Positions 32,679-63,603 of a stretch of DNA of 64,000 nt are shown piece by piece. The position numbers and the translations under genes were made by a program. Source of the stretch: Phenylobacterium sp. GTDB taxonomy: Bacteria > Pseudomonadota > Alphaproteobacteria > Caulobacterales > Caulobacteraceae. Under the pieces are notes generated by a model. That model was given only the letters and a program-made list of their open reading frames with translations, did no database searches and had not been told where the DNA came from. Numbering within the stretch: position 1 is the first letter of the stretch; each line of letters starts with the position of its first letter. The stretch is taken from positions 1 through 64,000 of the forward strand of contig JAGOQB010000012.1 in NCBI GenBank assembly GCA_017991675.1. The letters are read 5' to 3'.

Positions 32679-33809
32679 ATGTCCGACACCGTACTCGACC
32701 GCGCCTCCGCCCCGCGCCCGACGCCCAAGCCGGGCATCCTCGACATCGCCCCCTACGTGCCGGGCAAGTCGAAGGTCGAAGGCGTCGAGCATCCGCTGAA
32801 GCTGTCGGCCAACGAGAACATCCTCGGCTCCAGCCCCGCGGCGCGCGAGGCGTTCTCCACCGCCTTCGACCAGCTGCAGATGTACCCGGACGGGCGCGCG
32901 ACCATCCTGCGCGAGGCGCTGGCGGCGACCTACGGCCTGGAGCCCGAGCGCCTGCTGTTCGGCTGCGGCTCGGACGAGATCTTCCAGCTGCTCAACCAGA
33001 CCTTCCTCGAACCGGGCGACAATATCGTCCAGGGCGAGTTCGGCTTCGGCGCCTACGCCATCGGCGCGCGCGCCTGCCAGGCGGAAGTCCGCATGGCGCC
33101 CGAGCCCGGCTACCGCATCGACGTCGACGAGCTCTTGAAGCTGGTCGATGCGCGCACCCGCATCGTCTTCGTCGCCAACCCGGCCAACCCGACCGGCACC
33201 TGGAACTCCGGCGCCGAGATCCGTCGCCTGCACGCGGCCCTGCCGCCCAGCGTCGTGCTCTGCCTCGACGGCGCCTATGCCGAGTTCTGCGACGACCCGG
33301 CCTATGAGGACGGCATGTCGATGGTGCGCGAGTTCGAGAACGTCGTCGTCACCCGCACCTTCTCCAAGCTGCACGGCCTGGCCGCGCTGCGGGTCGGCTG
33401 GGCCTACATGCCGCCGGAGATGGCCGCCGCCGTCGACCGCATCCGCCTGCCGTTCAACGTCAACATCCCGGCCCAGCTGGCCGCCGTCGCCGCCCTCGGC
33501 GACGATGACTTCCAGCGCCGCTCGCTCGACCTCGTGAACCGCTGGCGCCCGTGGCTGACCCAGCAACTCGGCGGCCTTGGTCTCGAACCGCTGCCGTCGG
33601 CCGCCAACTTCGTGCTGGTCGGCTTTCCGACCACGCCGGGCAAGACCGCCAAGGAGGCCGACGCCTTCCTCAGCGCCCGCGGCCTGATCGTCCGCAACGT
33701 CGCCGGCTACGGCCTGCCCAACCACCTGCGCATCACCATCGGCCTCGAAGAACACAACCGCGCCGTGGTCGAAGCCCTGCGCGAGTTTCTGCACGGAGCC
33801 GGCGCATGA
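32679..33809 (+). CDS. hisC: histidinol-phosphate/aromatic aminotransferase
   Basis: A 376-residue fold-type I PLP aminotransferase. The block KLSANENILG at the N-terminus, FGCGSDEIF, VFVANPANPTGTW, DGAYAEFCDD and the PLP-lysine region TRTFSKLHGLAALRVGW fit HisC. Placed between chorismate mutase and tyrA it probably transaminates prephenate or 4-hydroxyphenylpyruvate as well as histidinol phosphate. Its stop overlaps the tyrA ATG by 4 bp. Confidence 0.9.
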   Translation: MSDTVLDRASAPRPTPKPGILDIAPYVPGKSKVEGVEHPLKLSANENILGSSPAAREAFSTAFDQLQMYPDGRATILREALAATYGLEPERLLFGCGSDEIFQLLNQTFLEPGDNIVQGEFGFGAYAIGARACQAEVRMAPEPGYRIDVDELLKLVDARTRIVFVANPANPTGTWNSGAEIRRLHAALPPSVVLCLDGAYAEFCDDPAYEDGMSMVREFENVVVTRTFSKLHGLAALRVGWAYMPPEMAAAVDRIRLPFNVNIPAQLAAVAALGDDDFQRRSLDLVNRWRPWLTQQLGGLGLEPLPSAANFVLVGFPTTPGKTAKEADAFLSARGLIVRNVAGYGLPNHLRITIGLEEHNRAVVEALREFLHGAGA

Positions 33810-34735
33810 GCGTGATCTACCCACGCATGGCGGTGATCGGCTGCGGCCTGATCGGCTCGTCGGTGATCCGCGCGGCCCGCGAGGCTGGCGCCGTCGGCCA
33901 CGTCTTCGTCGCCGACGCCAGCGAAGCGCACCGCGCCCGCATCGCCGAGCTCGGCTACGCCGACGAGGTCACCGGCGACATCGGAGAGGCGGTCAAGGAC
34001 GCCGACCTCGTGGTCCTCGCCGTCCCCGTGCTGGCGATGGGCGAGGCCGCGGCGGCGGCCGCCGCGGCGCTGAAGCCCGGCGCCACGGTCACCGACGTCG
34101 GCTCGGTGAAGGGCAGCGTCGCCGACGCCATGGCCAAGGCCCTGCCGGAGAACGTCTTCGTCATCCCCGGCCACCCGATCGCCGGCACCGAGCATTCCGG
34201 CCCCGACGCCGGCCTCGCCGAGCTGTTCCAGAATCGCTGGGTGATCCTTACGCCCCAGCCGCGCGAGGACGCAGCCTATGTCGAGGCGACCGGCCGCCTG
34301 GCCGAGTTCTGGCGCGCGCTCGGGGCCAATGTCGAGCAGATGGACGCCGGCCACCACGACCTGGTGCTGGCCGTCACCAGCCACCTGCCGCACCTGATCG
34401 CCTACAACATCGTCGGCACCGCCGCCGACATGGAGGAGGTCACCCAGGCCGAGGTGATGAAGTACTCGGCCGGCGGCTTCCGCGACTTCACCCGCATCGC
34501 CGCCTCCGACCCGACCATGTGGCGCGACGTGTTCGTGGCCAACAAGGATGCGGTGCTCGAAATCCTCGGCCGCTTCACCGAGGATCTCCAGGCCCTGTCG
34601 CGCGCCATCCGCTGGGGCGAGTCCGACAAGCTCTACGACCTCTTCAGCCGCACCCGCGAAATCCGCCGCGGCATCATCGCCGCCGGCCAGGAAAGCGCCG
34701 AACCCAACTTCGGCCGCGACCGCGGCAAACATTGA
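33806..34735 (+). CDS. tyrA: prephenate/arogenate dehydrogenase
   Basis: 309 residues. NAD(P)-binding GCGLIGSSV at about 11-19, the conserved GHPIAGTEHSGPDAG block with catalytic His, and SHLPHLIAY are all present. It oxidatively decarboxylates prephenate or arogenate towards tyrosine. No ACT regulatory domain follows. The last six codons (Arg-Asp-Arg-Gly-Lys-His-stop) recur downstream of the next gene, at 35925-35945, with two synonymous changes, indicating that the 3' end was replaced during insertion of the acyltransferase gene. Confidence 0.92.
   Translation: MSVIYPRMAVIGCGLIGSSVIRAAREAGAVGHVFVADASEAHRARIAELGYADEVTGDIGEAVKDADLVVLAVPVLAMGEAAAAAAAALKPGATVTDVGSVKGSVADAMAKALPENVFVIPGHPIAGTEHSGPDAGLAELFQNRWVILTPQPREDAAYVEATGRLAEFWRALGANVEQMDAGHHDLVLAVTSHLPHLIAYNIVGTAADMEEVTQAEVMKYSAGGFRDFTRIAASDPTMWRDVFVANKDAVLEILGRFTEDLQALSRAIRWGESDKLYDLFSRTREIRRGIIAAGQESAEPNFGRDRGKH
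34715..34735 (+). repeat. direct repeat at the tyrA 3' end (left copy)
   Basis: A 21-bp segment encoding the last six residues and stop of TyrA. It matches 35925-35945 at 19 of 21 positions, and the two differences are synonymous (aaa/aag, cat/cac). The two copies flank the acyltransferase gene. Confidence 0.75.
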
Positions 34736-34828
34736 GCGCTGGCCGAAGAACAATTCAACCTGCAGTATACATGAGATTGCAACGCGCCTCGCCGATATCT
34801 TAGTGTATTGGGGGCCACGGGGGCGCGC

Positions 34829-35923
34829 ATGCACGACAAACAGCTGGATTCGCTGCGCGCGTTCGCAGTCGCGGGTGTTTTTTACACCCACATGGTGGAC
34901 GACAGCACCCCGTTTGGCACCTGGGGCGTCCGCCTTTTCTTTGTCCTAAGCGGATTTCTGATCACCCGCATACTGATCGAAGCGAAGCCTGAAACGGGCG
35001 CCGACGCGGGCCAACCGCTGTTCGCATTTTACGCTCGACGAGCCCTAAGGATCCTTCCAGCGTACTTCGCAGCCTTGGGCTTGATGGCGATAGTCTTCTG
35101 GTCCGACGTGCGCACGTCCTTGCCTTGGCACGTGTTCTTCGCATCGAACATCTGGTTCTCCCTGCGCGATGCATGGGAGCCCTGGTTCTTCGCCCATCTG
35201 TGGTCGCTCAGCGTCGAGGAACAGTTCTACCTCATCTGGCCGCTTCTGATGATCCTCTCCCCAAGGCGGGCTCTGGCGTCGGTTTGCCTCGGCGGCGTGG
35301 CCCTGTCGGTCGTCTTTCGCCTGATCTGGCCGAGCCAGGATGGGGAAATGACAGGATCGCTGCTGCTTCCGGCGGCATTGGATGCTCTCGGAGCCGGCGC
35401 GCTGCTCGCGGTCTGCCGGCTGCAGGGCGTCGCCTTGCCGCGTTGGGCGCCGTGGGTGATGGCCGGTGTGGGAGCCGTCTCGCTCGTCATCATGACGTCG
35501 GACCCGGAGGCCTTGGACATCCTAGGTCCGCGCGCGGGATGGATCGCATCCTCGGCCTTGCCGCTACTGCTGTTCGTCCCGCTGATCGGAGGCGCGTCGA
35601 AGGGCTTCGGCGGGATCGGCGGAGTGATCCTGGAACTCGCGCCGCTCCGCTGGCTCGGCCGCATCAGCTACGGGCTCTACCTCTACCACATGCCGGTGCT
35701 CGCATTGGCCATCGCCCTGGCGCACCGCCACTTGATCCCGCACGCCTTGATCGAGCCAGGCCTATTGCGCCTCGCCGCGGTCGGCGGGGCGACCACCCTC
35801 GTCGCCACGCTTTCATGGCTTCTGATGGAGCGCCCCATCAACGGCCTGAAGCGTTACTTCAGCTATCGCCCGCCAAGCGGAAGCTTCGTCACCCGCGCCC
35901 CCCAGACACAGGCCGCCGGATAG
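34829..35923 (+). CDS. acyltransferase 3 family membrane protein
   Basis: About 364 residues with roughly ten membrane helices, the OafA/NodX-type acyltransferase family that acetylates or otherwise acylates surface polysaccharides. SLRAFAVAGVFYTHMVDD carries the conserved catalytic His; FFVLSGFLITRIL and SLSVEEQFYLIWPLL are family blocks. ATG 34829 opens at MHDKQLDSLRAFA. Codon use is less GC-rich than all flanking genes. It is bounded by a direct repeat of the tyrA 3' end, so I infer recent insertion behind tyrA. Confidence 0.87.
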   Translation: MHDKQLDSLRAFAVAGVFYTHMVDDSTPFGTWGVRLFFVLSGFLITRILIEAKPETGADAGQPLFAFYARRALRILPAYFAALGLMAIVFWSDVRTSLPWHVFFASNIWFSLRDAWEPWFFAHLWSLSVEEQFYLIWPLLMILSPRRALASVCLGGVALSVVFRLIWPSQDGEMTGSLLLPAALDALGAGALLAVCRLQGVALPRWAPWVMAGVGAVSLVIMTSDPEALDILGPRAGWIASSALPLLLFVPLIGGASKGFGGIGGVILELAPLRWLGRISYGLYLYHMPVLALAIALAHRHLIPHALIEPGLLRLAAVGGATTLVATLSWLLMERPINGLKRYFSYRPPSGSFVTRAPQTQAAG

Positions 35924-35924
35924 T

Positions 35925-35945
35925 CGCGACCGCGGCAAGCACTGA
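35925..35945 (+). repeat. displaced original tyrA 3' end (right copy of direct repeat)
   Basis: Begins two bases after the acyltransferase stop and still reads Arg-Asp-Arg-Gly-Lys-His-stop, the C-terminus of TyrA. It differs from the functional copy at two third-codon positions. It has no start and is not translated as such. It is best read as the native tyrA tail left behind by an insertion. Confidence 0.7.
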
Positions 35946-35953
35946 CCTGCTTC

Positions 35954-36069
35954 AGATGCTCCCCCTCTGGGGGAGCTGTCAGCCGACCGGCTGACTGAGG
36001 GGGACAGCAGACTCAGCGGTCCCCCTCCGTCGCGCTTCGCGCGCCACCTCCCCCAGCGGGGGAGGATCT
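35954..36069. repeat. intergenic inverted repeat with a GANTC site, copy 2
   Basis: Diverged second copy of the element at 26996-27113. The left arm agatgctccccct is closely matched, and the right arm (cctcccccagcgggggagg) has compensating changes. GACTC is at 36010-36014. It lies between the acyltransferase and the convergent EF-G-like gene and directly precedes branched element copy B. Confidence 0.75.
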
Positions 36070-36082
36070 GCCCACCACAGGT

Positions 36083-36216
36083 GTCATCCCGGTTTGCGAA
36101 GCAAGACCGGGACCCATGAACACCTGATGGCGCATATCCTGGCTGGGCTGGGCCTCACTCTGCAGCCCCCGGCGCGAATGGGTTCCGGGCAAGCCCTGCG
36201 GGCTTTCCGGGATGAC
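36083..36216 (+). repeat. 134-bp branched intergenic element, copy B
   Basis: Same plan as copy A: outer arms gtcatcccgg/ccgggatgac, hairpin TTGC-gaa-GCAA, central stem with one G-T wobble (cgggacccat/atgggttccg), and hairpin AAGCCC-tgc-GGGCTT. It lies 23 bp before the stop of the convergent EF-G-like gene. Confidence 0.85.
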
Positions 36217-36238
36217 ACCATTTTCTTAGTCTCCGACC

Positions 36239-38269
36239 TCACCCCGCATGCTGCTCGCCCTTGGCCACCTGCTCAGCCAGCCTGCCAGGCAGTTCGGCCA
36301 TGTGGTCGAATTCCGCGGTGAACTCGCCCAGCCCCTGGGTCAAGCCGCGCAGTTCCTGGATCAGGTCCTGGCGCTCGGCCCGGGGCAGGCAGACCTCGAT
36401 CTCGTCCCAGCCGCTCCAGCCCTCGCGCGGCGCAAAGCCGAGGATCTGGCCGCGCCGGGCCGACACCGCCTGGGTGATCTTCGAGGTCGAGGCCTGCGGC
36501 GCGTGGATCGTCAACTTCTCCACCGGCTCCAGCAGATAGGGCGCGGCGGCCCGCAGGCCCTCGCTCATCGCCAGCCGTCCGGCCGCCCGGAAGCTCATCT
36601 CCGAGGAGTCGACGCTGTGGTAGGAGCCGTCGACCAGCACCACCTCGACGTCGGTCACCGGAAACCCAAAGGCGCCCCGCTCCATGGCGTCGCGCACGCC
36701 CTGCTCGACCGAGGGGATCCACTGCTTGGGCACCACCCCGCCGGTGATCTTCTGCGAGAATGCAAACCCCTCGCCCCGCGCCCGCGGCTTGATCTCCAGC
36801 ACCACGTCGCCGAACTGGCCATGGCCGCCGGTCTGCTTCTTGTGCCGCCCGCGCTGGGTGACCGGCTTGCGCAAGGACTCCTGGTAGGAAACCTTCGGCC
36901 GCCCGGTCGCCGCCTCGACCCCGAACCGCCGCTTCAGCCGCTCCAGCAGCACGTGCAGGTGCGCCTCGCCGCGGCCGGAGACGATGGTCTCCTGGGTGGC
37001 CGGATCCTGGGCCACGACGATGGCCGGATCCTCCTCGGCCAGTTTGTTCAACGCCGCCGACAGCCGCACGTCGTCCTTGCGGTCCTTGGCCGAGATCGAC
37101 ATCGAGTAGAGCGTCGCCGGTGGGAACGCCGGCTGCGCCAGGCTGCGGGCCTTGCCGTCCATCGAGGCGACCATGCCCGGCGTCGCCGCCTCCAGCTTGC
37201 CGATCGCCGTCACCTCGCCCTCGCGCGCCCTGTCGGTCTTCTTACCGCTCGGGCAGGAGAAGCTGACCAGCCCGCCGGCCCGGGCCTTGTCGCCGCCGCC
37301 CAGGGTCAGTTCCTGGCCGTCGGCCAGCTCGCCCTGCATGACGCGGGCATAGGCGATCTTGCCGGCCTGGCCGGCGTAAGAGGTCTTGAAGACATAGGCG
37401 CAGGGCCCGTCCAGCCCCATCCGCGCCGCCGCCGCGCTGACGTCCGGCGTCTCGTGCCGCAGCGCCTTCAGCAGCCGCCGCACCCCGAAGCCGTTCAGCG
37501 CCGAGCCGAAGAACACCGGGGTGATCAGCCCCTGGGCGAGGTCCGCCACCAGGTCGGCGAACACCGCGTCCTGGCTGGGGCTGAGGTCCGAGAGCAGTTG
37601 CTCCATGAGCTCGTCGTCGAAGTCGGCCAGCTGCTCCAGCATGTGGAACCGCGCGTCGGCCTCGGCCGCCGCCATGTCGCCGCTGAGATCGACCTGCTGG
37701 CTCGGCTGGCCCGGCCGGTAGACGAAGGCCCGCTCCAGCGCCAGGTCGACGAACCCGGTCACGTGCTCCTTCTCGACCAGCGGGATCTGGCGGGCGACCA
37801 GCCGGTTACCGGACGCCGGGGCCAGGGCCGCCATCAGCTCGTCCAGCCCGCCGCGCGCCTGGTCGATCTTGTTGACGAACACCGCATGGGGCACGCGCCG
37901 CGCCTCCAGCTCCTTGAAGATCGGCTGCAGCAGGTGCGCCCGTGTCGGGTTCGGATCGGCGACGATAATCGCCAAGTCGACCGCCGGCAGCACGAAGTCC
38001 TCGGTCCCCGAAAACTCCGGCGAGCCGGGGCAGTCGATCACCGCATAGCGGTCGCCCATGAACTCGAAGCCCGCGACGTTGAACTCGATGGACTGGCCGC
38101 GGGCCCGCGCCTCGGGACTGGCGTCGCCGACGCTGGCCGAGCCGACCTCGCCCTGGCGCGGGATCGCGCCGGCCGCGAACAGCATGGCTTCCATCAGGGT
38201 TGTCTTGCCGGCTCCCGCCGCGCCGACGAGGGCGATGGCGCGTGCGGCGCCGGATCCTGGTCTGCCCAT
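36239..38269 (-). CDS. EF-G-like translation GTPase paralog
   Basis: 676 residues with EF-G architecture: P-loop GAAGAGKT (16-23), effector region, NKID (133-136), domain II and domains IV-V (RHKKQTGGHGQFGDVVLEIKP, EMSFRAAGRLAMSEGLR). In the G3 motif the canonical D-T-P-G-H is D-C-P-G-S (79-83), replacing the catalytic His. This fits the EF-G-like (FusA2-type) paralog group, not the main translocase. Its role is unsettled, perhaps ribosome or stress related. ATG 38269 follows a GGAGGG site. A TTG at 38284 is possible. Confidence 0.87.
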   Translation of the reverse strand: MGRPGSGAARAIALVGAAGAGKTTLMEAMLFAAGAIPRQGEVGSASVGDASPEARARGQSIEFNVAGFEFMGDRYAVIDCPGSPEFSGTEDFVLPAVDLAIIVADPNPTRAHLLQPIFKELEARRVPHAVFVNKIDQARGGLDELMAALAPASGNRLVARQIPLVEKEHVTGFVDLALERAFVYRPGQPSQQVDLSGDMAAAEADARFHMLEQLADFDDELMEQLLSDLSPSQDAVFADLVADLAQGLITPVFFGSALNGFGVRRLLKALRHETPDVSAAAARMGLDGPCAYVFKTSYAGQAGKIAYARVMQGELADGQELTLGGGDKARAGGLVSFSCPSGKKTDRAREGEVTAIGKLEAATPGMVASMDGKARSLAQPAFPPATLYSMSISAKDRKDDVRLSAALNKLAEEDPAIVVAQDPATQETIVSGRGEAHLHVLLERLKRRFGVEAATGRPKVSYQESLRKPVTQRGRHKKQTGGHGQFGDVVLEIKPRARGEGFAFSQKITGGVVPKQWIPSVEQGVRDAMERGAFGFPVTDVEVVLVDGSYHSVDSSEMSFRAAGRLAMSEGLRAAAPYLLEPVEKLTIHAPQASTSKITQAVSARRGQILGFAPREGWSGWDEIEVCLPRAERQDLIQELRGLTQGLGEFTAEFDHMAELPGRLAEQVAKGEQHAG

Positions 38270-38391
38270 GGCAGGCCCTCCCAAGTTGGAGGCGCCCGCC
38301 TCATGGGAGCGGGCGCTCGTGACCCCGACCGGCTATATGCTTCCACCCGCTTGGCGATCTGCACAAGCGCCGAGTTCGATGAGGAGCAGGG

Positions 38392-40304: not shown

Positions 40305-40315
40305 CCCCCCCCCCC
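40305..40315 (+). repeat. homopolymeric C11 tract
   Basis: Eleven consecutive C in the upstream region of the GST gene, 5 bases before branched element copy C. Long mononucleotide runs are prone to slippage. It is noncoding here, so an effect could only be on transcription or RNA structure. Confidence 0.9.
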
Positions 40316-40319
40316 AACT

Positions 40320-40455
40320 GTCATCCCGGTTTCGGCGTAGCCGAAGACCGGGACCCATGAACACCGGATAGATCAGAAATCGGCGCGGCCGAGCCCCATC
40401 GCCTCCTCCTGCGCGAATGGGTCCCGGACAAGCGCTTCGCGCTTTCCGGGATGAC
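40320..40455 (+). repeat. 136-bp branched intergenic element, copy C
   Basis: Same plan as the other copies, but the first hairpin is TTCGGC-gta-GCCGAA and the last is AAGCGC-ttc-GCGCTT, so both stems are kept by paired base changes. It lies between the alpha/beta hydrolase stop and the GST start, both on the minus strand. Confidence 0.85.
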
Positions 40456-40486
40456 ACCCCTAGAAAACCAGGGATGGCGCCTCACC

Positions 40487-42333: not shown

Positions 42334-42347
42334 CGCTCCCCACGCCT

Positions 42348-42481
42348 GTCATTCCGGTTTGCGCAGCAAGACCGGGACCCATGAACACCAGATGGACCAG
42401 ACTTCGGCGCAGCCTCGCCCCATCACCCCGCACTAGCGCGAATGGGTCCCGGACAAGCGCTGACGCGCTTTCCGGGATGAC
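42348..42481 (+). repeat. 134-bp branched intergenic element, copy D
   Basis: Outer arms gtcattccgg/ccgggatgac (one T-G wobble), hairpin TTGC-gca-GCAA, central stem cgggacccat/atgggtcccg, and hairpin AAGCGC-tgac-GCGCTT. It lies between two rightward genes, the LytTR regulator and the beta-lactamase-fold hydrolase. Confidence 0.85.
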
Positions 42482-42566
42482 ACCAAGAAGCCCCTGGCAC
42501 GACCGGGCGGCGTTGACGTACGCGCCTAAATTGCAATCATCCCACGCTACCCTTGCCGGAGACGTG

Positions 42567-43994: not shown

Positions 43995-44010
43995 GGACCA
44001 GTCTCCAACT

Positions 44011-44147
44011 GTCATCCCGGTTTCGGCGTAGCCGAAGACCGGGACCCATGAACACCTGATGGTTCAGACCTCGGCGCGGCCTCGCCCCTCCGCCGATGCC
44101 CGCGCGAATGGGTCCCGGACAAGCGCTGGCGCGCTTTCCGGGATGAC
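44011..44147 (+). repeat. 137-bp branched intergenic element, copy E
   Basis: Outer arms gtcatcccgg/ccgggatgac, first hairpin TTCGGC-gta-GCCGAA, central stem cgggacccat/atgggtcccg, last hairpin AAGCGC-tggc-GCGCTT. It lies between the convergent beta-lactamase-fold and helicase genes. Confidence 0.85.
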
Positions 44148-44204
44148 ACTCTGTGGTCACCCGCGGGGCGCTGCAAATGGCCGTGGCTCATAGATGCCGA
44201 GCAT

Positions 44205-58504: not shown

Positions 58505-59728
58505 ATGGCCGACTTTGGCGGCGGCGATCTCAACGCATTTCGCGGCGAGGTGAAGGCCTGGCTCGAAGCCAACTATCCTCCCGAACTGCGTGATCGGAAC
58601 GCCAAGACCGACGAAGAGGCGGTCTGGGGCGGCCGCGCCTTCGCCGGCTCCAGCGACCCGCAGATCGTCTGGATGCAGCGGATGGCGGACAAGGGCTGGA
58701 CCGCGCCGACCTGGCCCCAGGCCTATGGCGGCGGCGGCCTGTCGCCGCAGCAGGCCCGCATCCTCGACCAGGAGCTCAGCGCCGGCCGCTACCGCCAGCC
58801 GCTGGCCTCGTTCGGCATCTGGATGCTGGGCCCGGTGCTGCTCGAATACGGCTCCGAGGCGCAGAAGCTGGAATACCTGCCCAAGATCGTCCGCGGCGAA
58901 ATCCGCTGGTGCCAGGGCTATTCCGAGCCCGGCGCCGGCTCCGACCTCGCCGGCCTGCAGACCCGTTGCGAGGACAAGGGCGACCACTGGCTGATCAACG
59001 GCCAAAAGGTGTGGACGTCCTACGCCAACAAGGCCGATTGGTGCTTCTGCCTGGTCCGTACCGATGCTTCGAAAAAGCACGAAGGAATCTCCTTCGTCCT
59101 TATTGATATGAAGACCCCCGGCGTCGAGACTCGGCCGATCCAGCTGATCTCGGGCGAGAGCCCGTTCTGCGAGACCTTCTTCACCGACGTGAAGCTCGCC
59201 AAGGACGCCCTGGTCGGCAAGGTCAACGGCGGCTGGGAGATCGCCAAGCGGCTGCTGCAGTACGAGCGCCAGAACATCTCCGGCGGCTTCGGCGGCGGCG
59301 GCGGCGCAGGCGGCGCGGCCGGCGACCTGGCCCAGATCGCCAAGAGCTACATCGGCATCGACGAGACCGGCGCCCTGGCCGACAGCGACCTGCGCACCCG
59401 GATCACCAAGAACAAGATGGACTTCGACTGCTTCTACAAGACCATCGCCCGCGTGGCGGCGGAGTCGAAGGCCTCCAACGGCCCCAGCGCCGCCACCTCG
59501 ATCATCAAGTACGCCGCGGCGACCTTTGCCCAGGAGCGCTCGGAGCTGATGGTCGAGGCCATGGGCGCGCAAGGGCTCGGCTGGGAAGGCGAGGCCTACG
59601 CCCCGCTCGAACTGACCGCCACCCACGGCTGGCTGCGCTCGAAGGGCAACTCCATCGAGGGCGGCACCTCGGAGGTGAACCTCAACGTGGTCTCCAAGCG
59701 GGTGCTCGGCCTGCCCGACCCCAAGTAA
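58505..59728 (+). CDS. acyl-CoA dehydrogenase, first of a tandem array
   Basis: A 407-residue FAD-dependent acyl-CoA dehydrogenase that introduces the alpha-beta double bond. QGYSEPGAGSDLAGL and WTSYANKADW line FAD. The usual catalytic Glu of the MCAD type is Gly here (the motif reads NSIEGGTSEVN), but LLQYERQNISGG keeps a Glu at residue 254, the position used by isovaleryl-CoA dehydrogenase. ATG 58505 follows GGGAGGAATTC. It is related to the next three genes and ends ...LGLPDPK like the second. A glycine-rich loop FGGGGGAGGAAG follows the candidate base. Confidence 0.9.
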   Translation: MADFGGGDLNAFRGEVKAWLEANYPPELRDRNAKTDEEAVWGGRAFAGSSDPQIVWMQRMADKGWTAPTWPQAYGGGGLSPQQARILDQELSAGRYRQPLASFGIWMLGPVLLEYGSEAQKLEYLPKIVRGEIRWCQGYSEPGAGSDLAGLQTRCEDKGDHWLINGQKVWTSYANKADWCFCLVRTDASKKHEGISFVLIDMKTPGVETRPIQLISGESPFCETFFTDVKLAKDALVGKVNGGWEIAKRLLQYERQNISGGFGGGGGAGGAAGDLAQIAKSYIGIDETGALADSDLRTRITKNKMDFDCFYKTIARVAAESKASNGPSAATSIIKYAAATFAQERSELMVEAMGAQGLGWEGEAYAPLELTATHGWLRSKGNSIEGGTSEVNLNVVSKRVLGLPDPK

Positions 59729-59804
59729 GTGTGAACGGCGGCGCACTGTTCTTCGGGCCCCGTCCTTGATTTGATCGAAGCGATTTCGAGAGGCGAGATT
59801 TCCC

Positions 59805-61016
59805 ATGGCTGACTTCGGCGGCGACGACCTGCAGGCCTTCCGCAGCGAGGCGGCGGCCTGGCTCGAGGCGAACTTCCCCAAGGCGCTGGCGGCCGATCCG
59901 GCCGCCCAGGTCGCCAAGGCGAGCGGCGGCGAAGAGACGCCCGACGCGCTGGCCTGGCGCAAGGCCATGGGCGAGAAAGGCTGGGGCGTTCCGACCTGGC
60001 CCGCGCAATACGGCGGCGGCGGCCTGAGCCTCCAGCAGGCCCGCGTCCTGCATGAGGAAATGGCCAAGATCGGCGCCCGCAACCCGATCGGCGGCATGGG
60101 CGTGATGATGTTCGGCCCGACCCTGATCGAGTACGGGACGGAGGAGCTGAAGCGCCAGCACCTGCCGGGCATCATCAGCGGCGACGTCCGCTGGTGCCAG
60201 GGCTACTCCGAGCCGGGCTCCGGCTCCGACCTCGCCTCGCTGCAGACCCGCGCCGAGGACAAGGGCGAGACCTATCTGGTCAACGGCTCGAAAATTTGGA
60301 CAAGCGGCGCCAACCTCGCCGACTGGTGCTTCTGCCTGGTGCGGACGGATACGTCGAAGAAACACGAGGGCATCTCGTTCCTGCTGATCGACATGACCAC
60401 GCCGGGCGTCGAGGTCCGGCCGATCCTGCTGATCAACGGCACCTCGCCGTTCTGCGAGACCTTCTTCACCGACGTGGTCGTCCCCAAGAACCAGCTGTTC
60501 GGGCCGCTGAACGGCGGCTGGACGGTGGCCAAGCGCCTGCTGCAGTTCGAGCGCGACAACATCTCGGCCGGCCTCGGCGGCGGCTCGATCGGCGCGCCGG
60601 TCAACGCCCTGACCGTCAAGAGCGCCGCCAAGCAGTATGTCGGCCTGGACGAGAGCGGTCGGCTGGCCGACAGCGACCTGCGCCGGCGCATCACCGAACA
60701 CCTGATGGAAGTGCAGAGCTTCCAACAGACCGTCCGCCGCGCCGCCGACGAAGCCAAGGCCGGCAACGGCCCGTCGGCCGCCACCTCGATCATGAAGTAC
60801 ATGGGCGCCAAGGTGGCCATGGACCGCAACGAACTGATCGTCGAGGCCCTCGGCACGGCCGGCGCCGGCTGGGGCGGCGAAGGCTACGAAGACCCCGAGC
60901 TGGCCGCCGTCCGCACCTGGCTGCGCTCGAAGGGCAACTCGATCGAAGGCGGCACCTCGGAGATCAATCTGAACGTCGTTTCAAAACGAGTGCTGGGCCT
61001 GCCCGATCCCAAGTGA
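59805..61016 (+). CDS. acyl-CoA dehydrogenase, second of the array
   Basis: 403 residues, same N-terminus (MADFGGDDLQAFRSEAAAWLE) as the first. The FAD loop is QGYSEPGSGSDLASL. The MCAD-type catalytic Glu position reads IEGGTSEIN (Gly), while LLQFERDNISAG holds Glu249 at the alternative base position. Spacer from the first gene is 76 bp. The paralogs probably arose by tandem duplication and may accept different chain lengths or branched acyl-CoAs. Confidence 0.9.
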   Translation: MADFGGDDLQAFRSEAAAWLEANFPKALAADPAAQVAKASGGEETPDALAWRKAMGEKGWGVPTWPAQYGGGGLSLQQARVLHEEMAKIGARNPIGGMGVMMFGPTLIEYGTEELKRQHLPGIISGDVRWCQGYSEPGSGSDLASLQTRAEDKGETYLVNGSKIWTSGANLADWCFCLVRTDTSKKHEGISFLLIDMTTPGVEVRPILLINGTSPFCETFFTDVVVPKNQLFGPLNGGWTVAKRLLQFERDNISAGLGGGSIGAPVNALTVKSAAKQYVGLDESGRLADSDLRRRITEHLMEVQSFQQTVRRAADEAKAGNGPSAATSIMKYMGAKVAMDRNELIVEALGTAGAGWGGEGYEDPELAAVRTWLRSKGNSIEGGTSEINLNVVSKRVLGLPDPK

Positions 61017-61091
61017 TTTTATAGCCCCGCCCGAATACGGCAGCGCGAACCATAATCGTCGCTAAGATAATGATTATTAGGGAGAATTTTC

Positions 61092-62300
61092 ATGGCTGAC
61101 TTTGGCGGCCCCGATTTGGAAGCCTTCCGCGCCGAAGCCAAGGAGTGGCTTGAGGCGAATTTCCCGAAGTCGCTGGGCAAGGACGTGGCCGGTCAGACCG
61201 CCGCGTTGATGAGCCCGGACAAGCCCACCGGCGACCTCGCCGTGTGGAAGGAACGCATGGGCGCCAAGGGCTGGGGCGTGCCGACCTGGCCGAAGGCCTA
61301 TGGCGGCGGCGGCCTCAGCGCCCCCGAAGCCCGGGTCCTGGCCCAGGAGATGGGCAAGATCGGCGCGGTGAACCCGATCGCCGGCATGGGCGTGGCGATG
61401 TTCGGCCCGACCCTGCTGGAATACGGCACCGAGGAACAGAAGAAGAAGTATATCCCGGACATCGCCACAGCGAAGGTCCGCTGGTGCCAAGGTTTCAGCG
61501 AGCCGGGCGCCGGTTCCGACCTGGCTTCTCTGCAGACGAAAGCAGAAGACAAGGGCGATCACTGGATCGTTAACGGCTCGAAGATTTGGACCAGCGGCGG
61601 CCAATACGCCGACATGATCTTCTGTCTTGTTCGCACCGACCAGAGCCGCAAGCATGAAGGCATCTCGTTTGTTGTCTTCGACATGCACCAGCCGGGCGTC
61701 GAAGTGCGGCCGATCAAGCTGATCGCCGGCAACTCGCCGTTCTGCGAAACCTTCTTCACCGACGTTCCGGTGCCGAAGGAGAACCTGGTCGGGCCGCTGC
61801 ACGGCGGCTGGACGGTGGCCAAGCGCCTGCTGCAGCACGAGCGCAGCGGCATGAACGGCGGCCGCGCCGGCAGCACCTCCAACGTCTCGCTGGGCGTGCT
61901 GGCCAAGAAGTACGTCGGCGAGGACGAACAGGGCCGCCTGGCCGACAGCGACCTGCGCACCCGCATCATCCTCAACGAAATCGACCAGCGCGCCGTCGCC
62001 CAGACCGTGGTCCGCGCCGCCCAGGAATCCAAGGGCAATTCCGGCCCGTCGGCGGCGACCTCGATCATGAAGAACGCCTTCATGAAGGCGACCCAGGACC
62101 GCGCCGAACTGACCCTCGAGGTCATGGGCCACCAGGGCCTGGGCTGGGAGGGCGACGACTTCAGCGAGGAGGAGCGCACCGCGGTCCGCACCTGGCTGTC
62201 GGGCAAGGCCGGCTCGATCTACGGCGGCTCGAACGAAGTGCAGAGCAACATCATTTCCAAGCGTATCCTGGGACTCCCGGACCTGACCCAGAACCACTAG
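61092..62300 (+). CDS. acyl-CoA dehydrogenase, third of the array
   Basis: 402 residues. Differs from the first two at the C-terminus (IYGGSNEVQSNIISKRILGLPDLTQNH), where the MCAD Glu is again Gly. LLQHERSGMNGG supplies the candidate base Glu. AGGGAGA precedes the ATG. With the fourth gene it forms a closer pair, sharing the LTQN ending and IIxxRILGL. Confidence 0.9.
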   Translation: MADFGGPDLEAFRAEAKEWLEANFPKSLGKDVAGQTAALMSPDKPTGDLAVWKERMGAKGWGVPTWPKAYGGGGLSAPEARVLAQEMGKIGAVNPIAGMGVAMFGPTLLEYGTEEQKKKYIPDIATAKVRWCQGFSEPGAGSDLASLQTKAEDKGDHWIVNGSKIWTSGGQYADMIFCLVRTDQSRKHEGISFVVFDMHQPGVEVRPIKLIAGNSPFCETFFTDVPVPKENLVGPLHGGWTVAKRLLQHERSGMNGGRAGSTSNVSLGVLAKKYVGEDEQGRLADSDLRTRIILNEIDQRAVAQTVVRAAQESKGNSGPSAATSIMKNAFMKATQDRAELTLEVMGHQGLGWEGDDFSEEERTAVRTWLSGKAGSIYGGSNEVQSNIISKRILGLPDLTQNH

Positions 62301-62397
62301 GGTGCATCCGAACCAGGCCGTTTGCGCCATGTCATTTCGCATGGCGCAGGCGGCCACGAGTTTTCAAACGACCTGATTTTTCTAGGAGACTATTTCA

Positions 62398-63603
62398 ATG
62401 GCAGATTTTGGCGGCGGCGATCTCGACGCCTTCCGTTCGGAAGTGCGCGGCTGGGTCGAGGCCAACTTCCCCGCTTCGCTGAAGGGCAAGCCCAACCCGA
62501 TGATGCGCGAAGAGCGCAGCAACCCGAGCCCGGACCAGGACGCCTGGCGCAAGGCGGTGGGTTCGAAGGGCTGGGGCACCCCGACCTGGCCGGCCGAGTA
62601 CGGCGGCGGCGGACTGTCGTCGGCTGAAGGCCGCGTCATCATGCAGGAGTTCCAACGCGCCGGGGCCTACAACCCGATCGGCGGCATGGGCGTCATGATG
62701 TTCGGCCCGACCCTGCTGGAATACGGCACGGACGCGCAGAAGAAAGAGCACATCCCCTCGATCTGCCGCGGCGAAATTCAGTGGTGCCAAGGTTTCAGCG
62801 AGCCTGGCGCCGGTTCCGACCTCGCCTCTCTTCAGTGCAAGGCTGAAGACAAGGGCGACCATTACCTGGTGAACGGCCAAAAGATCTGGACTTCGGGCGC
62901 TCAATACGCCGACTGGTGCTTCTGCCTGGTGCGCACCGACACCAGCAAGAAGCATGAAGGCATCTCCTTCGTGCTGTTCACCATGCACCAGCCGGGCGTC
63001 GAAGTCCGCCCGATCCCGCTGATCGCCGGCAACTCGCCGTTCTGCGAAACCTTCCTGACCGACGCCCGCGCCGAGAAGAAGGACCTGGTCGGCCCGCTGA
63101 ACGGCGGCTGGACCATCGCCAAGCGCCTGCTGCAGCACGAGCGTTCGGGCCTGTCGGGCGCCGGCGGCGGCGGTTACGGCGGCGCCAAGCCGCTGCCGAA
63201 GCTGGCCAAGGACTATGTCGGCCTCGACGAGAGCGGCAAGCTGGCCGACAGCGACCTGCGCACCCGCATCATCCTGAACGAGATCGACGGCCGCGCCTTC
63301 CAGCAGACCGCCGTGCGCGCGATGATGGAAGCCAAGGGCAATTCCGGCCCGTCGGCGGCGACCTCGATCATGAAGAACGCCGGCACCCGCTGGATGCAGG
63401 ACAAGGCCGAACTGACCCTCGAGATCATGGGTCACCAGGGCCTGGGCTGGGAAGGCGACGCCTTCACCGGCGACGAACTGACGGCGGTCCGCTCATGGCT
63501 CGGCGGCAAGGCCACCACGATCTATGGCGGTTCGCAGGAGGTGCAGAACAACATCATCTCCAAGCGCATCCTCGGCCTGCCCGACCTGACGCAGAACAAC
63601 TAA
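62398..63603 (+). CDS. acyl-CoA dehydrogenase, fourth of the array
   Basis: 401 residues. N-terminus MADFGGGDLDAFRSEVRGWVE, FAD loop QGFSEPGAGSDLASL, and the candidate base in LLQHERSGLSGAGGG. The C-terminal motif is IYGGSQEVQNN, again Gly at the MCAD base. AGGAGA precedes the ATG. Most similar to the third gene. The 97-bp spacer in front is the longest in the array. Confidence 0.9.
   Translation: MADFGGGDLDAFRSEVRGWVEANFPASLKGKPNPMMREERSNPSPDQDAWRKAVGSKGWGTPTWPAEYGGGGLSSAEGRVIMQEFQRAGAYNPIGGMGVMMFGPTLLEYGTDAQKKEHIPSICRGEIQWCQGFSEPGAGSDLASLQCKAEDKGDHYLVNGQKIWTSGAQYADWCFCLVRTDTSKKHEGISFVLFTMHQPGVEVRPIPLIAGNSPFCETFLTDARAEKKDLVGPLNGGWTIAKRLLQHERSGLSGAGGGGYGGAKPLPKLAKDYVGLDESGKLADSDLRTRIILNEIDGRAFQQTAVRAMMEAKGNSGPSAATSIMKNAGTRWMQDKAELTLEIMGHQGLGWEGDAFTGDELTAVRSWLGGKATTIYGGSQEVQNNIISKRILGLPDLTQNN

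Follow-up and report, generated by a model that had tools for sequence, protein, structure and literature searches.

A foreign acyltransferase gene behind tyrA in a Phenylobacterium genome, flanked by two copies of the tyrA 3′ end

Among the integrated elements described so far, the closest in appearance to the locus analysed here are the genomic islands found in dusA, a protein-coding gene. These islands are flanked by semiconserved direct repeats of 21 bp, the gene end beside the insert can be derived from the element, and they also occur in Phenylobacterium zucineum; they are located in the 5′ portion of dusA, encode an integrase and span 4.8-185 kb (PMC4482086). For Mesorhizobium elements, guaA, radC and dusA are listed as sites (PMC8627217). 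Homology-facilitated illegitimate recombination provides a second precedent, in which integration relies on homology at one end and on illegitimate joining at the other (PMC3240628). An insertion in V. cholerae that shifted back the 3′ end of a gene has been proposed to be perhaps of this type (PMC5361080). In such events, a foreign segment comes to lie beside a homologous anchor and the old 3′ end is displaced downstream (PMC3240628, PMC5361080). Finally, tRNA genes act as hotspots with variable cargo at the gene 3′ end, as at a tRNA-Cys gene in Phenylobacterium, where one genome (G010) holds a broken relative of the acyltransferase discussed below.

The window, which is the whole stretch of 64,000 nucleotides that was analysed, stems from a Phenylobacterium genome (G000) and contains a membrane acyltransferase gene behind the prephenate dehydrogenase gene tyrA (Table 1). 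Like the dusA islands, the insert has a protein gene as its target and is flanked by semiconserved direct repeats of 21 bp, but it is located at the 3′ end of tyrA, comprises 1.2 kb, has no integrase that could be found and is known from one genome. According to the original prediction, this site, if reused by different cargo, would be a cassette hotspot not yet described; the claim of novelty fails because gene-end exchange at a protein gene has been published for dusA with repeats of the same length (PMC4482086). Among the titles and abstracts listed in a targeted search of the literature, none named tyrA as an integration site, which is not proof of absence. The type of event is already known under either of the two main mechanisms weighed below.

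Table 1. Features of the tyrA/EF-G region, in window coordinates
Feature	Position	Strand	Remarks
tyrA (prephenate dehydrogenase)	33806..34735	+	Intact; Pfam PDH_N and PDH_C
Upstream copy of the 21-bp tail	34715..34735	+	CGCGACCGCGGCAAACATTGA; is the tyrA end, AAA CAT TGA
Leader preceding the acyltransferase ATG	34736..34828	+	58% GC; absent from relatives
Membrane acyltransferase gene	34829..35923	+	364 aa from ATG, open throughout; Pfam PF01757 Acyl_transf_3
Downstream copy of the 21-bp tail	35925..35945	+	CGCGACCGCGGCAAGCACTGA; non-coding, AAG CAC TGA
Repeat 1 (common interspersed repeat, inverted arms)	35950..36076	.	Absent at this place in G038, G032, G010 and G018
Second interspersed repeat	36079..36219	.	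TGTCATCCCGG...GGGATGACA
EF-G-like gene	36239..38284	-	Forms the right border and is oriented convergently to tyrA; 890.8 bits to NCBIfam NF009379 (elongation factor G)

The two copies of the tyrA tail agree at 19 of 21 positions and both encode R-D-R-G-K-H-stop. Their two differences (AAA/AAG and CAT/CAC) fall on third codon positions and are synonymous, and the longest identical stretch amounts to 14 bases. The acyltransferase stop codon (35921-35923) is separated from the downstream copy by a single base. The original prediction had described this recurrence of the tyrA end correctly, both in its coordinates and in the two synonymous differences. A 21-mer close to both copies and ending in TAA, searched with at most 3 mismatches, occurs at two places only in the window and had no match in 100 dinucleotide shuffles, and when the downstream 5 kb was simulated 1,500 times with a first-order Markov model, the best tail match was 16/21. 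Furthermore, a comparison was made of 88 distinct tyrA 3′ ends, many of them from outside the genus, which were taken from 115 of the 117 loci L001-L117 after two loci with a cut-off tyrA had been dropped. A downstream match better than 16/21 was present at the window's own locus only; room of at least 1,400 nt was available downstream in 80 of the 88 ends, so that the other eight are unable to reveal an insert of such a size. A chance origin of the tail repeat is excluded. Nor is the tail a common unrelated sequence, its exact pattern being rare outside tyrA in the genus.

The acyltransferase may alternatively start at a TTG codon at position 34808, which yields a protein of 371 aa. Residues 11-335 of this longer form match the Acyl_transf_3 profile with 92.3 bits against a cut-off of 31, and the match spans positions 2-323 of 326, that is, nearly the whole domain, which places the protein in this family. 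No NCBIfam name was obtained at E<=0.001. From its family, the enzyme probably acylates a surface polysaccharide or lipid. It is the sole ORF with a Pfam match among those of at least 60 aa starting inside the insert, and three ORFs overlapping it, one of which extends beyond the right end of the insert, have no Pfam match. The GC content is 64.6% (GC3 80.8%) for the gene and 58.1% for the 93-nt leader, compared to 71.0% (GC3 93.9%) for tyrA and 71.1% (GC3 93.5%) for the EF-G-like gene, which bears out the earlier observation that the DNA between the repeats is less GC-rich than either flank. None of the 17-mers of the leader occurs in the other loci compared (the window's own L001 and L118 being left out), and folding of the leader revealed no unusual structure.

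Homologues of the acyltransferase are distant. In the genus, 12 of 101 genomes, the window's own included, contain a match at E<=1e-20; the homologues in the other genomes are 32-38% identical, with the exception of the G010 remnant, which is internally deleted, shows 61-65% identity and adjoins the 3′ end of the tRNA-Cys gene. Further matches in a sample of the family (n=299, E<=1e-25) are 34-40% identical, and a sample of the class (n=385) yielded nothing but the window's own acyltransferase at E<=1e-40. On plasmids and phages every relative has less than 60% identity, the best among the plasmid matches listed being full-length genes of approximately 43-47% on Sinorhizobium, Ensifer and Rhizobium replicons, and relatives on viral contigs reach at most 39%. 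To judge from its lower GC content and the distance of its homologues in the genus, the insert of about 1.2 kb is foreign.

A mobile unit common to the window and the G010 remnant was considered and rejected: the homology stops about at the gene and no flank could be aligned. The orientation of the remnant relative to tRNA-Cys also differs from the arrangement at tyrA. The tRNA-Cys site, between genes for an acyl-CoA dehydrogenase and a PCMT-family protein (Pfam, on the G010 copies), varies in its contents among relatives (loci L198, at G000:C6:66000-70000, L132 in G010, and L199-L202); it is empty in G038 and contains the broken acyltransferase in G010. This site looks like an ordinary hotspot, whereas no reuse is seen at the tyrA tail.

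Relatives for the comparison of the region were retrieved by tyrA. The sister of the window's genome is G038 (support 100/100 in a tree built from hisC together with most of tyrA). A tree of the EF-G side groups the window with G038, G010, G032 and G018, with G038 nearest and the branching order unsupported. The tyrA protein has 97% amino-acid identity to those of G038, G032 and G010. In G038 and G032, tyrA is followed by seven bases, the second interspersed repeat and then the EF-G-like gene; in G010 and G018, it runs directly into the EF-G-like gene; and in G013, it is followed by a relative of repeat 1. The original prediction proposed to look for strains in which tyrA runs directly into the repeat near 35954; a related copy follows tyrA in G013, and this repeat is absent at the site in the other four genomes. 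None of the five contains the acyltransferase at this place. The alignment of the region across relatives, which had been proposed as a check, therefore yields empty sites rather than a gene shared by all relatives, and supports the predicted insertion of a foreign segment of approximately 1.2 kb that left tyrA intact. The distance between the aligned ends of the two genes, tyrA and the EF-G-like gene, is 1,510 bp in the window; of the 14 distinct other genomes with both genes found, 12 have 9-171 bp and two have 1,342 bp. Because G038 and G032 lack repeat 1 too, approximately 1.34 kb in total are missing there, namely the leader and gene, the downstream tail and repeat 1, and the difference may stem from more than one event. 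From these comparisons, the tail repeat brackets a true insertion behind tyrA.

Two readings would deny an insertion. In the first, the order tyrA-acyltransferase would be ancestral and would have been lost in the relatives via recombination between the two tails. Such an exchange between direct repeats would leave behind exactly one tail, but the lineages leading to G038, G032, G010, G018 and G013 would each have had to lose the gene, with only the window keeping it; apart from the G010 remnant, which lies at a different location, the genus offers no near relative of the gene. We judge an ancestral order to be highly improbable. In the second, the acyltransferase would have been wrongly joined behind tyrA in an incomplete draft, as the insert is known from one assembly of 25 contigs with 70.7% completeness. 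The identity of 14 bases between the tail copies is too short for usual assembly overlaps, a false join is not expected to place copies of the tail on both sides, and the gene order known from the relatives is maintained on either flank, all of which renders an artefact very improbable.

The account that we consider probable, with considerable room for doubt, is a single insertion of approximately 1.19 kb of foreign DNA, containing one intact Acyl_transf_3 gene, by illegitimate or homology-assisted recombination. The segment would have entered the lineage of the window's genome after the split from G038, being placed at the tyrA 3′ end within the convergent tyrA/EF-G gap, with the joining using or duplicating the tyrA end. 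Two routes may be envisaged. In one, fill-in of a staggered break during end joining of the foreign DNA could have produced two identical copies, which diverged afterwards. In the other, pairing with tyrA could have anchored one end of the incoming DNA, the opposite end being joined without long homology; the old tail of the recipient would then be left downstream. The anatomy of the locus is compatible with homology-facilitated illegitimate recombination, but a donor with tyrA plus the acyltransferase was not found in the genomes searched, for which reason we infer the joining step. In addition, no imported patch is visible in the 3′ part of tyrA against seven relatives, so that the homology-assisted form would need a very near donor. 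The end-joining protein Ku is found in G038, G032 and G010, and was not found in the 70.7% complete assembly of G000. The whole looks like one event in which nothing was broken.

The original prediction regarded the upstream tail as foreign and the downstream tail as native. This assignment is not established by the relatives: the tyrA tail of G038 (GGCAAGCATTGA) has the CAT codon in common with the upstream copy, while those of G032 and G013 are identical to the downstream copy. With a window branch of 0.02 changes per site, 0.84 differences are expected between initially identical copies, and by a rough Poisson estimate the probability of at least two differences is 0.21, or 0.62 at 0.05 changes per site. 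Two differences are thus unremarkable for copies that were initially identical, and no foreign tail is needed; a simple duplication at insertion would be enough to explain the pair.

A repeat of 21 bp ending exactly at the stop codon is also expected of an attachment site at a gene end, which counts against illegitimate or homology-assisted recombination. The main rival is accordingly site-specific integration, in which a tyrosine-recombinase element used the tyrA 3′ end as its chromosomal attachment site; the upstream copy would have come with the element, the native end would be the right repeat, and the integrase would have been lost or have acted in trans. Direct repeats that restore the target gene are indeed present: 14 identical bases are followed by the two synonymous differences before the stop, tyrA is regenerated and the insert lies between the repeats. 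The upstream tail is richer in A/T, like the insert, and the dusA islands, which are flanked by 21-bp semiconserved repeats, likewise supply the gene end (PMC4482086). However, no integrase match was obtained among the ORFs of at least 60 aa in the insert, and the five PF00589 matches in G000 are all on other contigs. The G010 remnant lies at tRNA-Cys in another orientation and without a flank match. Illegitimate recombination is favoured over site-specific integration because neither an integrase in the insert nor a second occupied site nor a donor form was found, and we regard the site-specific reading as unlikely, though it deserves to be taken seriously.

Transposition with a long target-site duplication would likewise leave a direct repeat flanking the insert, but no transposase match was obtained among the insert ORFs tested, and no inverted repeat joining the two ends was seen among the 25 pairs listed out of 27, in a search with a minimum length of 14 nt that would miss shorter ends. 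Moreover, compared to known target duplications, 21 bp is long, and transposition is accordingly judged highly unlikely. The sequence 3′ of the gene, with one base between the stop and the tail copy, did not qualify as an attC site of an integron cassette.

The exact tail pattern has matches in 35 of the 101 genus genomes, the remaining genomes being without a match. It occurs twice in G000 and once at tyrA in 33 others, none of which has a second exact copy, although this search would miss an inexact second copy far from tyrA; the lack of a second copy also speaks against site-specific integration. Four matches away from tyrA (one each in G064, G006, G056 and G087) were read and proved to be unrelated sequence. 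The original prediction of a cassette hotspot, reused and marked by the 21-bp repeat, is not supported by these counts. In G075 and G050 (L041 and L113), the tyrA/EF-G gap does contain another gene, of 421 aa and belonging to the PF00144 beta-lactamase family (Pfam, on the G075 copy), but the tail duplication expected to flank such genes is absent. Other genes behind tyrA in G009 and L037 also come without a duplicated tail. The gap between these convergent genes thus accepts other genes without a second tail, and is permissive rather than marked as an attachment site. It is scarcely credible that the tyrA 3′ end serves as an attachment site for integrase-less single-gene cassettes that each bring a replacement tyrA tail, a reading under which sampling has so far hit a single occupied site. 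Phage attachment was likewise considered and rejected: the tail pattern occurs on one viral contig, where it lies between two ORFs, and the three ORFs tested on this contig gave a phage lysozyme, an SU10 adaptor and no match. The absence of an integrase among these three is a further point against the site-specific reading.

Repeat 1 has 52 matches in G000, 33 in G038, 53 in G032 and five in G018 (E<=1e-5, both strands counted, so that one palindromic copy can score on both), and its number differs strongly between close relatives. Since the repeat is common, no special link with the insertion is needed, and its presence beside the downstream tail may be a separate event. The second interspersed repeat is found four times within approximately 8 kb (36079-36219, 40314-40458, 42336-42483 and 44005-44149). 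Further downstream, four tandem repeats of approximately 1.29 kb occupy positions 58505-63503. Compared over stretches of 300 nt, they share 66-80% identity with the reference copy. The repeats match a gene for an acyl-CoA dehydrogenase, and Pfam recognises Acyl-CoA_dh_N at the beginning of the second one.

If further strains were to contain a variety of genes behind this tail, always accompanied by the duplication, this would hint at an attachment site that has gone unrecognised; no such inserts are seen in the present sample. The locus provides a clean snapshot of a single foreign gene entering a chromosome without damage, with an empty site in the sister genome and both junctions readable. 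Overall, it gives the impression of an ordinary gene acquisition, neat and without a second instance.
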